From positions 4,340,001-4,404,000 of the forward strand of contig NC_015635.1 of NCBI RefSeq assembly GCF_000270245.1: a stretch of 64,000 nt of DNA, in the 5' to 3' direction. This document shows, piece after piece, positions 4,586 through 59,712 of the stretch (positions within the stretch are counted from its first letter, which is position 1; every line of letters starts with the position of its first letter). Both the position numbers and the translations under genes were made by a program. The DNA comes from Microlunatus phosphovorus NM-1 (lineage in GTDB: Bacteria; Actinomycetota; Actinomycetes; Propionibacteriales; Propionibacteriaceae). Under the pieces are notes generated by a model. It was not told the origin of the DNA. It searched no databases and was given only the letters and a program-made list of their open reading frames with translations.

Positions 4586-5974
4586 GATCGAATCGTTGCG
4601 GATCTCCGACGGTGGATTTCCGGTGCTCCTCCGGGTGCACAGCTGCCCTCGAATCGCGCGCTGACAGCTCAGTACGGGGCCAGTCCCGTCACCGTGCAGA
4701 AGGCGATGCGGACTCTCGCCGCACTGGGCCTGATCGAGAGCCGCCCCGGCATTGGCACGTTCGTGCGAACCGTCCGCGCGTTGGGTCCGGCCGACCTCGG
4801 GTGGCAGACAGCTGCACTCGGCGCTCCTCCTGCCCGTCTGCCCACTCTGGCGACGCCGCAGCGTACGGCGGCCCCGGATGCCATCGGTCTCCATTCCGGC
4901 TACCCCGCCCATGACCTGCTGCCAGCGCGGCTGGTGCGCGCCGCGATCAGCCGAGCAGCGCGTACTGAGGCCGCCCTCACCCGCTCCCCCGCCACCGGGA
5001 TGCCCGAGTTGCGATCCTGGTTCGCTGCCGAGCTTGCGCGTACGGCCCCCGCCGCGGTTACGCCGGCAACAGCACGCGACGTGCTGATCCTCTCGGGTAG
5101 CCAGAGCGGCCTGAGTTCGATCTTCCGAGCCCTCATCGGCCCTGGTCAGCCTCTGCTCATCGAGTCACCCACCTACTGGGGAGCGATCCTGGCCGCCGCA
5201 CAGGCCGGGGTCACGCTTGTCCCGATCCCAGCCGGGCCGGACGGGCCGGACCCGGACGAGATCGACCGGGCGTTCACGCAGACCGGCGCCCGCGGGTTCT
5301 ACGCCCAACCCACCTATGCCAATCCCACCGGCGGTCAGTGGCCGGTCGAAGCCGGGCAGCGCGTCTTGGACATCTGTCGCCGCCACGGCGCCTTCTTGAT
5401 CGAGGACGACTGGGCGCACGACCTCGCCATCGACACCGACCCCCACCCGATCGCCGCACACGACCACGACGGCCACGTGATCTACCTCCGTTCCCTCACC
5501 AAGAGCGTTTCGCCGTCGCTGCGCGTAGCCGCGGTGATCGCCCGCGGACCGGCACGAGACCGCATCCTCGCCGACCGCTCGGCCGAGTCGATGTATGTCA
5601 GCGGCGTGCTCCAAGCCGCAGCCCTCGACGTCATCACTCAGCCCGGCTGGCGCACCCACCTGCGAACCATTCGTCACCAACTCCGCGCACGCCGCGACTT
5701 ACTGATCACCAGCATCGGCGACCATGTCCCGCAAGCGCACCTCGAGCGGCCCCCGGTCGGCGGACTCAACTTGTGGCTCCGGCTACCCGACGGGACCGAC
5801 CTCGACACTCTCACTCGCGCCTGCGAAGCTCGCGGCCTGATCATCGCCGACGGCCGCGAATGGTTCCCCGCCGAACCGCCCGCCCCCTACATCCGACTCA
5901 ACTTCTCCGGGCCTGACCCCGACCGCTTCGCCGAAGCCGCCGCGATCCTCGGCAACACGCTCACCAGTCGGTAG
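4568..5974 (+). CDS. MocR/PdxR-type regulator: GntR helix-turn-helix fused to a class I aminotransferase domain
   Basis: Residues 1-75 form a GntR winged helix (ISGAPPGAQLPSNRALTAQYG ... VTVQKAMRTLAALGLIESRPGIGTFV). Residues 100-468 form a fold-type I aminotransferase domain with SGSQSGLSSIFRAL, the tyrosine region AQPTYANPTGG, EDDWAHDL and the PLP-lysine segment YLRSLTKSVSP. MocR proteins use bound PLP or a PLP adduct as an effector and often regulate an adjacent gene; the divergent EamA transporter is the obvious target. The start sits on the same CATG as the EamA start, and no later start keeps the DNA-binding domain intact. Confidence 0.93.
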   Translation: MSQDSTDRIVADLRRWISGAPPGAQLPSNRALTAQYGASPVTVQKAMRTLAALGLIESRPGIGTFVRTVRALGPADLGWQTAALGAPPARLPTLATPQRTAAPDAIGLHSGYPAHDLLPARLVRAAISRAARTEAALTRSPATGMPELRSWFAAELARTAPAAVTPATARDVLILSGSQSGLSSIFRALIGPGQPLLIESPTYWGAILAAAQAGVTLVPIPAGPDGPDPDEIDRAFTQTGARGFYAQPTYANPTGGQWPVEAGQRVLDICRRHGAFLIEDDWAHDLAIDTDPHPIAAHDHDGHVIYLRSLTKSVSPSLRVAAVIARGPARDRILADRSAESMYVSGVLQAAALDVITQPGWRTHLRTIRHQLRARRDLLITSIGDHVPQAHLERPPVGGLNLWLRLPDGTDLDTLTRACEARGLIIADGREWFPAEPPAPYIRLNFSGPDPDRFAEAAAILGNTLTSR

Positions 5975-17572: not shown

Positions 17573-18601
17573 GTGACTTCGTCCGTAGAGGCCCAAAGGG
17601 CTGTCGACCGGCTCGCGGCTGCAGCGAATCTGTCGGTGCTGGTGGAGGACGTTCGGCAACGTCCGATGTGGTGGAGCACGCGTGGTGCGGTGGACCCGAG
17701 TCGGGCATCGACGATCCTCGATCGCCGGGTTGATCCGCTGGCCGCCGAAGTGATCCCCCGTTTCGGCATCCGGGAAGCGGAAGGTCCGGTGCGCACGCCG
17801 GACCTGCCGGATCGTGGAATGTTGGCCCGATGGTGCATGCCCGCTCGCCACCAAGGCCGCCTGATGGGCTACGTCTGGGTCCTAGATCCCGATGATGCGC
17901 TCGGCCGGGCCGGGCTGCTACCGGTGTTGATCGAGTGTGCGGAGATCGCCGGCGACGCGCTGGCGGCGGTCGCGAGCGCGGAGCTGGATCGACGACTGCG
18001 CCGCGACGAGCTGATCGGCATGCTGCTGACCCGGTCCGACCCAGACGCTGCCGCCGAACTGGCTCGGATCGAGCATCTGCCCCACGATGTTGCGGTCCAG
18101 GTGGAAGCTCCCGCGCGTGCCGGTGGCTGGCGGCTGCCGGGCGCGATGAGCGCGCACGTCGTACGACGTCGTCCCCGGCCTGCCACCAGCGGGGACCCAC
18201 TGCCGCTGGCCGACCTCAAGGTGGCCGCGGACCGGGCGCTGGCAGTGGTTCGGGTCATCGCGGCCGGTGCGACGCTCAAGGCGCCCACCTGGAACTGCCT
18301 GGGCGGGTGGCGGCTCGTCGTGGCCGCGCCGCCGGAGCTGGCGGTGTCGGCGGTACACCCGGCCGTCGAGGTGCTGCGCACGCAACCGAGGGACGATCTC
18401 CTGGTCACCGCTCGAGTGGTGCTGGACCATGGCGCAGACGTGGCCGTGGCCGCGGCCGATCTCCACCTGCATCGGACGACGCTGTACTACCGGCTGGAGC
18501 GGATCCAGCAGTTGACCGGGGTCAGACTGTTGGGTGGCGGTGAGACCGCCGACCTTCACCTGGCTCTGTGGCTCGACGCCTATCGCCGGGTCGCCGACTG
18601 A
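17573..18601 (+). CDS. PucR/CdaR-type transcriptional regulator
   Basis: The 342-residue protein ends in a PucR C-terminal helix-turn-helix (AAADLHLHRTTLYYRLERIQ-LTGV, residues about 300-330). The first 150 residues resemble a GAF-like sensor part (LSVLVEDVRQRPMWWS, GRLMGYVWVLD). PucR-type proteins regulate purine, proline, polyphenol or other nutrient pathways. It ends three bases before the stop of the FAD oxidase gene, so the two genes are convergent and tightly packed. It is the only regulator in this catabolic cluster and is the likely ligand of the symmetric operator at 22674-22727. Start is GTG after GGAGGG. Confidence 0.87.
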   Translation: MTSSVEAQRAVDRLAAAANLSVLVEDVRQRPMWWSTRGAVDPSRASTILDRRVDPLAAEVIPRFGIREAEGPVRTPDLPDRGMLARWCMPARHQGRLMGYVWVLDPDDALGRAGLLPVLIECAEIAGDALAAVASAELDRRLRRDELIGMLLTRSDPDAAAELARIEHLPHDVAVQVEAPARAGGWRLPGAMSAHVVRRRPRPATSGDPLPLADLKVAADRALAVVRVIAAGATLKAPTWNCLGGWRLVVAAPPELAVSAVHPAVEVLRTQPRDDLLVTARVVLDHGADVAVAAADLHLHRTTLYYRLERIQQLTGVRLLGGGETADLHLALWLDAYRRVAD

Positions 18602-32305: not shown

Positions 32306-32801
32306 GGGCGGGTGGGGGCCCCTTCCGAGACTATGGATCCGAGAACGACACGATCTCGGAGGTCTCTTCCACCGGCCACCCTAGGCCAGCCGCCGCACCG
32401 GGCACACCCCGACGACCTACGTTGTCGTTGATGGGATGCGAGCGTCCGTGCTGACGATACGACGCGAAGGAATACTCCCCTCCGCATCCAGTATCTCAGG
32501 CCACACCCCAACCTGAGAAATCCTGTGAGTCAGACCACGTCCCTGGGGCGCGGACCGCGGCGGATGCCGTCCGATCCGGGCGGTAGCTGTCGAATCCGTG
32601 ACAAATCCGCGGTTCAATCGCGTAAACGGGTCCGACACGCCGTATGACCTCAGTTGAACCGCTCATTTGTCCCACTATCGGGCGAGCCGCCGTCAACCTC
32701 ACCAGAACGAGCTGGCGCACGAAGGAGTTGGTGCCCTGGCCGGATCAGGGCCTGGTCGGGCGTTCCGAGCCAGCCTCGCCCGCCATCGACCTCAACCAGG
32801 T
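32306..32801. other. Gene-free stretch of about 500 bases
   Basis: No coding frame is convincing between the TerC start and the hairpin repeat. A short stem (TCTCAGG 32494-32500 with CCTGAGA 32512-32518) is visible. The TerC promoter must lie at the left end; no clear consensus was seen. Hairpin repeat sequence begins at 32802. Confidence 0.6.
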
Positions 32802-32905
32802 GGACGCTTTGGCGGCTGCGACTCGAGTCAGGGAGTGGTGGGCGTTCCGAGCGGAGCCTGCGGAGCGAGGTGGGCAAGACTCGAGTCGCAGCCGCCGGAG
32901 CGTCC
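32802..32905. repeat. Long hairpin repeat directly 3' of uvrB (H1)
   Basis: Arms 32802-32829 and 32878-32905 are 28 bases each and complementary throughout, with 26 Watson-Crick pairs and two positions that would be G-U. The 48-base core (32830-32877) has AGTGGTGGGCGTTCCGAGCG, then GAGC-TGCGGAGCGAGGTGGGC. The same core occurs between quite different arms at 58806-58968. The hairpin begins two bases after the uvrB stop. There is no U run, so it is not a standard terminator. Confidence 0.85.
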
Positions 32906-32907
32906 AA

Positions 32908-35007
32908 TCAGCGGCTCGCCTCGACCATCTGCCTGAGCTCCTTCTTCAGCTCCGCGATCTCGTCACGCAGCCGCGCCGCCACCTCGAACTGCAGGTCGGC
33001 AGCAGACGCGTGCATCTGCTGGGTCAGATCCTGGATCAGGTCGGCCAGGTCTCCAGCCGGAATACCGGCCAGGTTCCGCGCCGTCTTGCTGGCGTCCTTC
33101 ATGCCCAGGCTGGGCACCGCGGTCTTCTGTCGGCGGCCGTTGCGACCGCTGAACAACTCGTCGGTGTCGGCGTCCTCACGAGCGAGCATGTCGGTGATGT
33201 CGGCGATCTTCTTCCGCAGCGGCGTCGGATCGATGCCGTGTTCGAGGTTGTACGCCACCTGCTTCTCACGCCGCCGATTGGTCTCCTCGATCGCGGCGGC
33301 CATCGAGTCGGTGATCTTGTCGGCGTACATGTGCACCTGACCGGACACGTTTCGGGCGGCCCGGCCGATGGTCTGGATCAGGCTCTTCTCGCTACGCAGG
33401 AAGCCTTCCTTGTCGGCATCCAGAATCGAGACCAGGGACACCTCCGGCAGGTCGAGGCCCTCGCGCAGCAGGTTGATCCCCACCAGGACGTCGTACTCCC
33501 CCATCCGCAGCTCGCGGAGCAACTGGATCCGCTGCAACGTGTCCACCTCGGAGTGCAGATAGCGCGTCCTGATCTGGTGCTCCAGCAGATAGTCGGTGAG
33601 ATCCTCGGCCATCTTCTTGGTCAGCGTGGTGACCAGCACCCGCTCATCTCGCTCGGCGCGCAACCGGATCTCGGCCATCAGGTCGTCGATCTGACCGTGC
33701 GTGGGCTTGACGATCACCTCCGGGTCGACCAGCCCGGTCGGCCGGATCAGCTGCTCCACGTAGCCATCCGACCTGGCCAGCTCATAGTTGCCAGGGGTCG
33801 CGGACAGATAGACCGTCTGCCCGATCCGCTCGACGAACTCCTCGAACCGGAGCGGTCTGTTGTCCATCGCGCTCGGCAGTCGGAACCCGTGGTCGACCAG
33901 GGTCCGTTTCCGGGACATGTCGCCCTCATACATCCCGCCGATCTGCGGCACGGTGACATGCGACTCGTCGATGACCAGCAGGAAGTCCTCGGGGAAGTAG
34001 TCGAGCAGACAGTTCGGCGGCGAGCCCGGGCCACGGCCGTCGATGTGCCGGGAGTAGTTCTCGATGCCGGAGCAGGTGCCGATCTGGCGCATCATCTCGA
34101 TGTCGTACGACGTGCGCATCCGCAGCCGCTGGGCCTCCAACAGCCGTTGCTGCTGCTCCAGCTCCGCCAACCGCTCGCCCAGCTCGTGCTCGATGCCACC
34201 GATCGCCCGCTCCATCCGCTCCGGGCCGGCGACATAATGGCTGGCCGGAAACAGATAGACCTCGTTGTCATGGTCGGTCACCACCTCGCCGGTCAGCGGA
34301 TGCAGCGTGGACAGATTCTCGATCTCGTCGCCGAAGAACTCGACCCGAACCGCAAGCTCCTCATACATCGGGAAGACCTCGAGCGTGTCGCCGCGCACCC
34401 GGAACGTGCCGCGCGTACCGGCCAGATCGTTGCGCGCGTACTGGATCCCGACCAGGCGTCGCAGCAGCGTGTCTCGATCATGCTCCTCCCCCAGTCGCAG
34501 CCGAACCATCCGATCGACGTACTCCTGGGGGGTACCCAGTCCGTAGATGGCCGAGACCGTCGCCACCACGACCACGTCTCGCCTGGTCAGCAACGAGTTG
34601 GTAGCCGAGTGCCGGAGTCGCTCGACCTCCTCGTTCAGGGAGGAGTCCTTCTCGATGTAGGTGTCGGTCTGTGGAACGTAGGCTTCCGGCTGGTAGTAGT
34701 CGTAGTAGGACACGAAATACTCCACCGCGTTTTCGGGGAAGAACTGCCGCAGCTCGTTGGCGAACTGGGCAGCCAACGTCTTGTTGGGCTGCATCACCAG
34801 CATCGGTCGCTGCAGCCGCTCCGCCAGCCAGGCCACCGTCGCCGTCTTGCCGGTGCCGGTCGCACCGAGCAGCACGATGTCGTTCTCACCATCTTCGATC
34901 CGGCGCTCCAGCTCGGCAATCGCCTGCGGCTGGTCACCGGACGGCTCGAAGTCGCTCACCACCTTCAGCGGTGCCACTGAGCGCAACAGGTCTTCGATCG
35001 GACGCAT
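32908..35007 (-). CDS. uvrB: Excinuclease ABC subunit B
   Basis: The 699-residue protein is UvrB: N-terminal ATP domain with [13 protein letters not shown], the beta-hairpin segment [21 protein letters not shown] that wedges into damaged DNA, helicase motifs ([20 protein letters not shown]) and the C-terminal UVR motif that contacts UvrC. It verifies damage for UvrC incision after loading by UvrA. Position next to coaE and rpsA matches the conserved actinobacterial order. No LexA box was recognised upstream. A hairpin repeat follows the stop. Confidence 0.98.
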
Positions 35008-58613: not shown

Positions 58614-58670
58614 CCCCGAACCGAGGGGCCGCGCCGGAATTGGGCGGCCACAGGGGTAGTGGTCGGCAGC

Positions 58671-58745
58671 GGTCACGTCAGTCCCGGATCAAGCGGGGTG
58701 TGGGGGCGACGTCAGGGAATGGTGGGCGTTCCGAGCGGAGCTTGC
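58671..58745 (+). repeat. Truncated copy of the hairpin repeat
   Basis: These 75 bases repeat at 58821-58895 with two mismatches, offset 150. The copy contains the left arm and the first half of the shared core but stops at GAGCTTGCC; the right arm is missing. It is a partial duplication of the H2 element beside it. Confidence 0.85.
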
Positions 58746-58805
58746 CTCACCAACCCGAAGGGTCGAGGACGACCACTCCGTACGCGAGTGAGTTGGAGCC
58801 ACTGA

Positions 58806-58968
58806 GGGGTGGGCTGCGGTGGTCACGTCAGTCCCGGATCAAGCGGGGTGTGGGGGCGGCGTCAGGGAGTGGTGGGCGTTCCGAGCGGAGCTTGCGGAGC
58901 GAGGTGGGCAGGACGTCGCCCCCACACCCCGCGCACCCGATCAGGACGTGATCACCGCAGCCCACCCC
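58806..58968. repeat. Long hairpin repeat 3' of livF and of the toxin gene (H2)
   Basis: Inner arms 58843-58863 and 58912-58932 pair at 20 of 21 bases; outer arms 58806-58829 and 58945-58968 pair at 23 of 24, with a 12-13 base internal loop between them. The central core shares AGTGGTGGGCGTTCCGAGCG with 32830-32877 and again GAGGTGGGCA. The arm sequences are unrelated to those at 32802. It lies between the convergent toxin and livF genes. Confidence 0.85.
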
Positions 58969-58987: not shown

Positions 58988-59018
58988 CGTACGGAGTGTC
59001 AGTCCTCGCCCAGATATG
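58988..59018 (+). repeat. Right copy of the livF-end repeat (the real livF 3' end)
   Basis: This is the partner of 56841-56870. It covers the last codons and stop of livF on the minus strand plus ten bases beyond. If it is an attachment site, insertion at the gene end left livF intact. Confidence 0.65.
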
Positions 59019-59712
59019 CCTTGCGGACGTTCTCATCGGTCAGCAGTGCCTGGCCCGTGTTCTGCAGCACGATCTGGCCGACCTCCAGCACATACCCGTA
59101 GTCGGCGAGCGACAAGGCAGCCTGCGCGTTCTGCTCCACCAGCAGGATGGTCACACCCTCCTTCTGCAATTCCACGATCGTCGACATGATCCGTTGCATC
59201 ATCAGCGGCGACAATCCCATCGAGGGCTCGTCGAGCATCAGCAGCTTCGGCCGGCTCATCATCGCCCGGCCGATGGCGAGCATCTGCTGCTCACCACCGG
59301 AGAAGGTGCCGGCCGGCTGTGCCCGCCGCTCCTTCAGAATCGGGAACAGATCGAAGGCCCGATCCAGATCCTGTCCGATCGCGGTCTTGTCCTTGCGCGC
59401 GAAGGCGCCGAGCATCAGATTGTCCTCGACCGTCAGCCGCGGAAAGATTCGCCGTCCCTCCGGCGAGTGCGCCAACCCGAGCATGGTGATCTCGTGCGCC
59501 GGCATGGCGTCGATCCGCTTGCCCTGGAACCAGATCTCGCCGTCTTCGGGCTTGATCAGACCGGAGATGGTCCGCAGCGTGGTGGTCTTGCCGGCTCCGT
59601 TGGTGCCGACCAGGGTGACGACCTGGCCCTCCTCGACGGTGAAGCTGATCCCCTTCACGGCGCGAACTCGACCGTAGGCGACCTTCAGGTCCTTGATCTC
59701 AAGCATCGCCAT
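58999..59712 (-). CDS. livF: ABC transporter ATPase, branched-chain amino acid type (LivF)
   Basis: The 237-residue ATPase has Walker A GTNGAGKTTTL, the signature TFSGGEQQMLAIGRAMMSRP, Walker B LLMLDEPSMGLSP and a closing VRKAYLGED. It powers import with LivG, LivM and LivH. Its start overlaps the livG end by 14 bases. The 3' end is duplicated 2.1 kb away at 56841-56870. Family transporters carry Leu, Ile, Val, but also urea or other amides in actinobacteria, so the substrate is open. Confidence 0.95.
   Translation of the reverse strand: MAMLEIKDLKVAYGRVRAVKGISFTVEEGQVVTLVGTNGAGKTTTLRTISGLIKPEDGEIWFQGKRIDAMPAHEITMLGLAHSPEGRRIFPRLTVEDNLMLGAFARKDKTAIGQDLDRAFDLFPILKERRAQPAGTFSGGEQQMLAIGRAMMSRPKLLMLDEPSMGLSPLMMQRIMSTIVELQKEGVTILLVEQNAQAALSLADYGYVLEVGQIVLQNTGQALLTDENVRKAYLGED

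Follow-up and report, generated by a model that had tools for sequence, protein, structure and literature searches.

A dispersed palindromic element with a conserved core and drifting, complementary arms lies behind stop codons in Microlunatus and related actinobacteria

The window analyzed here, 64,000 nucleotides of Microlunatus phosphovorus NM-1 (positions 4340001-4404000 of a genome contig of 5,683,123 bp), contains two hairpin-like elements whose 48-nt cores are two bases apart and whose arms, mostly unlike between the two, are complementary within each. This raises the question of what kind of element keeps the pairing of its arms and not their sequence, and of what such an element does behind genes. 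In copy A, the P1 arms at 32801-32829 and 32878-32906 (29 nt each, forward strand as for all element parts given here) form 27 Watson-Crick pairs and two T-G pairs (93% complementarity) around a core at 32830-32877. This core consists of a conserved 5' box, AGGGAGTGGTGGGCGTT (32830-32846), a P2 region, CCGAGCGGAGCCTGCGGAGCGAGG (32847-32870), and a conserved 3' box, TGGGCAA (32871-32877). In copy B, arms of 21 nt at 58843-58863 and 58912-58932, with one G-T pair, enclose a core at 58864-58911 that comprises both boxes and P2. Copy B is nested in an outer helix (58806-58829 with 58945-58968; 24 nt, 96% complementary). As the earlier note on this DNA had stated, both copies lie just 3' of a gene. 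The stop codon of uvrB (32908-35007, reverse strand, Pfam UvrB) is 1 nt from copy A, and the open reading frame of an ABC transporter ATPase (58999-59712, reverse strand, Pfam ABC_tran), for which the name livF was that note's own, turns its 3' end at 58999 toward copy B.

The core strings described as common to both elements are exact, since AGTGGTGGGCGTTCCGAGCG (exact search) and GCNTGCGGAGCGAGGTGGGCA (zero mismatches) each have two sites in the 5.68-Mb genome, namely copies A and B. The arm complementarity reported for them is real. The statement that the arms differ completely holds for most of their sequence and fails at their closing ends, where both copies share GTC/GAC. Two more intact copies in the window genome, at 17899-17982 and at 5345-5430, were recovered by covariance models, together with decayed copies near 5602-5680 and near 58696-58785. 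Copies of the core lacking complementary arms, which had been named as an observation that would speak against the hairpin pattern, occur in the window genome only as truncated or decayed pieces. These are a partial duplicate that covers copy B's 5' half and has no 3' arm (58659-58745, 93% identical to 58809-58895; a tandem duplication of 87 nt with a spacing of 150, spanning window positions 58659-58895), the chromosomal piece near 5602-5680, and a remnant recognized by eye at 32743-32772, which holds GGTCGGGCGTTCCGAGCC, a 13-nt repeat of the box.

Comparison across genomes makes it clear that the feature belongs to a dispersed family of palindromic elements, each about 90-140 bp long. The layout runs from one P1 arm through a G-rich box (RGGGNGTGGTCGGGCGTT), a variable P2 helix and a GGGCGG motif to the other P1 arm, with arms mostly of 20-35 bp and cores of about 45-100 nt. 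In 26 aligned copies, the consensus of the 5' box is RGGGNGTGG(TC)GGGCGTT, where TC, T or C stands at the bracket; when copies are listed side by side, the 3' box is GGGCGG, as in most of the family, or a near form. The arms end on GTC in 67 of 110 entries and on TCC in 19, and the three inner pairs of the 26-sequence alignment are G-C in 26, T-A in 24 and C-G in 26 sequences. Some copies from a second actinobacterial family (hereafter f23) close otherwise, for instance on TTC at locus L109. At the foot of the element, A is found at position -1 and G at +1, each in 27 of 46 copies. The two ends of P2 pair better with each other than with ends taken from other copies: in the 32 copies remaining of 107 after look-alikes were taken out, the mean pairing run is 4.03 versus 3.05 with swapped partners, a value that none of 2000 permutations reaches, and the run is at least 5 in 14 of the 32. 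Where copies are of the same type as the window's, P2 is only a weak helix; the variable middle often shows facing CGA...GAG steps (by eye), and one copy (L153, genome G066) has nearly no middle region. A G-quadruplex was considered and rejected, a fourth G-tract being missing, by eye, from both window copies. In genome G006, five copies (L050, L067, L123, L144, and L090) have in common an upstream stretch, CGGCAGCCCGCAC...GTGCGGTG, which by eye is absent from copies in other genomes; TTCGACAAGCTCAG-type repeats adjoin the element at L050, L067, and L123, for example.

Two covariance models, built from seven copies and then from 26 (R2), each with the 18 inner P1 pairs only, find the element in Microlunatus, Micropruina, other genera, and family f23. 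Within the order, R2 matches occur in at least 20 of 391 genomes, and those 20 all belong to the same family as the window; within the class, they occur in at least seven of 394 genomes (two Microlunatus and five of f23), and among f23 genomes in 12 of 22. The first model gives at least 17 of 195 genomes, matches without arms in G105 and G028 (L064, L065) having been dropped. In searches of more than 40 genomes, 10 to 21 candidates were scored per genome, so that absences are soft there. Fuller scoring of 11 chosen genomes yields 88 matches at E <= 0.01, some of them decayed, distributed as 29 (Micropruina glycogenica), 15 (genome G089), and 9, 7, 6, 5, 5, 4, 3, 3, and 2 in the nine others. 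Scanning named genomes with a pattern turned up 15 stretches, eight of them in M. glycogenica, with two each in Micropruina sp. KQZ13P-5, in Microlunatus kandeliicorticis, and in Propionibacteriaceae MAGs; a Streptomyces stretch (L224) is not a copy, as it has no arms by eye. In an exact-pattern search of 198 family genomes, 23 had a match and the folded hits mostly lacked such a hairpin, those that did fold being in the window genome (G000), G006, G016, and G018, with a decayed one in G017. One chance match with its core inside a gene (L104) was taken out of the element list by hand and is excluded from the folding, mismatch, position, and P2 counts. Viral contigs gave no match to one exact pattern. 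No Rfam family exceeds its gathering threshold in the window, and eight further loci gave a single sub-threshold match (snoTBR5, E 0.29). Searches of the open literature yielded no description naming this family. The picture of a structured, dispersed, mobile-looking family stands, and the sequence compared with Rfam matches none of its families. It is apparently an undescribed gene-end element, dispersed bacterial palindromic repeats being already known as a kind.

That the arms drift in sequence while their complementarity is kept is seen in the pairing of P1. Among seven copies from four genomes, 99.2% of the cells are paired, versus 73.8% (sd 2.7) with shuffled and 44-52% with slid partners, the structure having been drawn from those same copies; the hairpin pairing claimed earlier is therefore well above chance. 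In 26 sequences, 98.7% of 468 P1 cells are paired, versus 59.7% with shuffled and 41-49% with slid partners, and 163 cells carry a double change relative to the commonest pair (42 when shuffled). Double changes touch 16 of the 18 pairs (13.5 when shuffled; 11 of 500 shuffles reach 16), and there are 44 further pair types (37 when shuffled; 3 of 500 reach 44). These last two, of five covariation measures in all, stand out less from the shuffles, which counts against the reading favored below. The covariation supports the suggestion that the arms changed while remaining complementary, and it makes the element a natural case in which folding, and not sequence, is conserved at the arms of a repeat.

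The position of the element relative to genes was counted with a simple and crude codon-bias gene caller at 94 places outside G089, of which 80 are clear, 10 unclear, and 4 overlap an open reading frame call. Among the clear sites, 79 of 80 lie 3' of at least one gene; 34 are convergent and only one is divergent. At tandem sites, the nearby gene's 3' end is turned toward the 3' end of the element in 35 cases versus 10 in the opposite arrangement (p = 2.5e-4). Moreover, the median distance from the 3' end of the element to the facing stop codon is 44 nt (n = 69), versus 145 nt at the opposite end (n = 44). The element is thus found a short way past stop codons, with one orientation preferred, and because of that orientation the mRNA of the facing gene carries its C-rich complement.

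From this position and orientation, a role at the mRNA 3' end, ending or protecting the transcript, can be inferred, and we tentatively favor, as a reading that may quite well prove correct, a mobile palindromic repeat that serves as a 3'-end hairpin of genes. The element would be inserted behind a gene as a whole unit and would then act, with its C-rich strand as RNA, as the hairpin that ends or protects the mRNA of that gene. A protein or polymerase would read the conserved internal loop and not the arms. The complementarity of the arms would be maintained at the DNA level, through selection for the hairpin, aided by replication that uses one arm as the template for the other, and such upkeep would explain why G-U intermediates are scarce. 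U-tract terminators are considered scarce in GC-rich actinobacteria, and what ends transcripts in these organisms becomes testable with this element. It should, however, be noted that there is no U-tract at the window copies, which weighs against a 3'-end role; a scan for terminator-like sites, with loops of 3-8 only, found none at either copy, and no adjacent T-run was seen.

A possible but doubtful alternative is that the element is a selfish palindromic repeat, REP- or MITE-like and without benefit to the host, which survives in the harmless space behind genes. In this reading, a transposase or replication slippage would act on the hairpin and template switching would keep the arms alike; in PMC8794818, perfect stems are maintained through multi-base compensatory change by such template switching. 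The uneven copy numbers given above are what such a repeat would produce, as are its patchy presence and the arms, which are near-identical among copies within Micropruina and within G089 and unlike between genomes. Among 16 Micropruina copies (352 cells), 34 one-sided and 33 double changes are found. One-sided changes being as common as double ones, these copies decay, and the same figures make a selfish repeat with template switching a serious rival. The copies compared across genomes are nearly perfect, on the other hand, no transposase was recognized beside copies in an unsystematic look at flanking genes, and neither the 35:10 orientation bias nor the 44-nt gap is expected of harmless junk.

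The copies of G089 bear on the same alternative. At their 13 places there is no orientation bias, which speaks against the favored reading; the four arrangement classes number 3, 3, 3, and 1 (3 are unclear or overlapping). Three pairs of copies in opposite orientation, about 1.8 kb apart, enclose a DUF222 gene (L077, L078, and L079), as a selfish repeat might, and six further copies have a DUF222-type gene on one side. The L077 protein has 439 residues, a DUF222 domain (Pfam E 7e-34) and an HNH-like end, the latter by eye only. When a G089 DUF222 protein was compared by tblastn with 248 loci and the window, matches were limited to 11 loci of G089 and a single one of Micropruina (L128, 43% identity), so that the DUF222 gene is not a general feature of the element. 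A larger version of the favored reading, improbable as it stands, would make the element a new class of actinobacterial mobile gene-end element. A dedicated factor would read the conserved internal loop in the folded strand and would insert or maintain the element, oriented one way, after stop codons, and the element would supply the mRNA 3' end. Pairing would be the sole constraint on the evolution of the arms and, in one lineage, the element would have become the inverted ends of a mobile DUF222-HNH unit.

Which strand folds is a question on which the evidence conflicts. Across 48 non-redundant copies, 48 of the 1188 arm pairs are mismatched: 14 G-T versus 4 A-C (p = 0.03) and 23 purine-purine versus 7 pyrimidine-pyrimidine (p = 0.005). 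This asymmetry favors the G-rich strand as the folding strand, whereas the orientation behind genes designates the C-rich strand as the RNA; the facing gene's mRNA does not correspond to the G-rich strand, which counts against the 3'-end role. The two T-G pairs of copy A, in which the earlier note had seen a hint of RNA pairing, are real, but the hint is weak, G-T making up 1.2% of all P1 pairs, a share below that expected of ordinary RNA helices. With G-T pairs so few, upkeep of the complementarity at the DNA level is the better guess. The folding of the core itself is unremarkable (mean z of -0.5 for the G-rich and -1.0 for the C-rich strand, n = 29), a further point against the 3'-end role. 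The lower folding energy of the G-rich strand in 87 of 90 cases was discarded as evidence, the difference between the strands being larger in shuffled cores (-7.9 versus -6.4 kcal/mol).

The strand asymmetry would be accounted for if the element were an independent small RNA, a structured non-coding RNA with a conserved internal loop transcribed from the G-rich strand toward the 3' end of the neighboring gene. The covariation of P2 fits such an RNA, and the wider spacers on the left-hand side could hold a promoter. We consider it unlikely, given the rarity of G-T pairs in P1 and a G-rich stability that shuffled cores equal or exceed. Moreover, a sigma-70 consensus scan found no promoter-like site at the window copies, no upstream sequence common to copies of different genomes was seen by eye (within G006 there is one), and the Rfam comparisons are negative in the sequence tested.

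The history of single sites can be followed in 19 genomes of the genus, in each of which the regions behind uvrB and behind gyrB were read. Behind uvrB, the element is present only in the window genome and in G017, which are sisters in the tree (support 1.0), and is missing from the 17 others. Among 26 comparable arm pairs, 15 are the same in both, seven are doubly changed and Watson-Crick in both, and four are imperfect in one. In G017, the element lies 3 nt past the uvrB stop codon, and the leader of terC follows at +171, counted from the stop codon's first base. A string of this leader, GGGGAGTA, occurs behind uvrB in 14 of the 19 genomes; its position is +171 in G017 and +252 in G019, and it ranges from +36 to +128 in the other 12. 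It is not in the stretch read in G000, G003, G005, G009, and G012, and in the window genome it does not occur in the first 420 nt behind uvrB. The terC leader also carries GTCATCAC-like and GAAGAGACCTCC strings (e.g., L189 and L195) and resembles by eye the yybP-ykoY manganese riboswitch, with no Rfam call (L189, L190, and L195 among the sources). The uvrB-terC spacer of the window contains another inverted repeat (32600-32671, 18-nt arms 36 nt apart).

These sites bear on the proposal, made in the earlier note as one of two possibilities, that the core alone was inserted into the loops of pre-existing hairpins. Twelve relatives carry the terC leader no more than 130 nt behind uvrB, and in 11 of them the gap is free of inverted repeats scoring 10 or more; the sole one, in G002, is weak, with 13-nt arms. 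In the line of G000 and G017, therefore, either the core and the arms were acquired jointly or the arms arose afterwards; gain as a whole unit is the probable course. No target-site duplication was seen by eye at the filled and empty uvrB sites. Behind gyrB, the element is found in G000, G005, and G010, and with a decayed core in G017 (4 of 19 genomes, the other 15 being without it). That most relatives lack the element at both genes weighs against the favored 3'-end role. Plain hairpins that could have received a core are indeed present there in the relatives G013, G014, and G001. In G010, however, a G001-like hairpin is intact farther downstream of the element (score 31 versus at most 25 in 300 shuffles), and the arms of G010 and G005 align in register, with 23 pairs of which 15 are the same, six doubly changed and two imperfect. 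Core insertion is thus already disfavored at both loci and, although the outer 24-bp helix around copy B would suit it and leaves it open at that copy, we regard it as very improbable overall. The gyrB-gyrA spacer of G002, G007, and G015 (L164, L165, and L162) contains another kind of hairpin-like element, which has an inner helix of its own and a GTC/GAC-like closing pair and is possibly a cousin family. With orthologous double substitutions and empty sites in hand, selection and template switching become testable against each other as the force that keeps the arms paired. Chance inverted repeats or an assembly artifact, for which nothing was found, are already refuted by the anatomy shared between genomes of two families and by covariation far above controls.

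The favored 3'-end hairpin can be set beside several known systems. The stems that template switching keeps perfect through multi-base compensatory change resemble the arms described here, those of PMC8794818 belonging to RNA genes and these to a dispersed repeat family. Like an intrinsic (Rho-independent) terminator, the element is a strong GC hairpin that stands some 44 nt from stop codons and whose arms are free in sequence. It differs in lacking a U-tract at the window copies, in carrying a conserved G-rich box and GGGCGG in its internal loop, and in being multi-copy, with copies related by descent. Terminal inverted repeats of conserved sequence and a target-site duplication mark MITEs; the terminal arms here are complementary and not conserved in sequence between genomes. 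In integron attC sites, the fold is conserved over the sequence and the conserved boxes lie at the outer ends of the palindrome. The present element likewise shows fold over sequence, a location behind genes and a strand asymmetry, but its boxes are in the inner loop, its outer ends are weakly conserved, and it adjoins conserved genes such as uvrB and gyrB. REP13E12 and DUF222-HNH repeats are known from actinobacteria; many G089 copies adjoin DUF222 genes in a similar way, whereas among the other loci read only the Micropruina locus has a relative of the gene. In REPtrons, inverted REPs flank a transposase gene. REP, BIME, and REPtron (TnpA-REP) sequences are short intergenic palindromes that fold into hairpins (PMC8266576), and the element is likewise dispersed between genes, hairpin-forming and mobile-looking, with inverted G089 copies flanking a gene as in REPtrons. 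Unlike them, it has no GTAG foot (positions -4 to -1 are variable in 46 copies), it spans 90-140 bp versus 20-50 nt, and its arms are not conserved in sequence while the REP palindrome is. Beside its copies no Y1 transposase was recognized, the paired copies of G089 enclosing a DUF222 gene instead. Without the foot, the size or the conserved stem of a REP, the element is REP-like in its habit.
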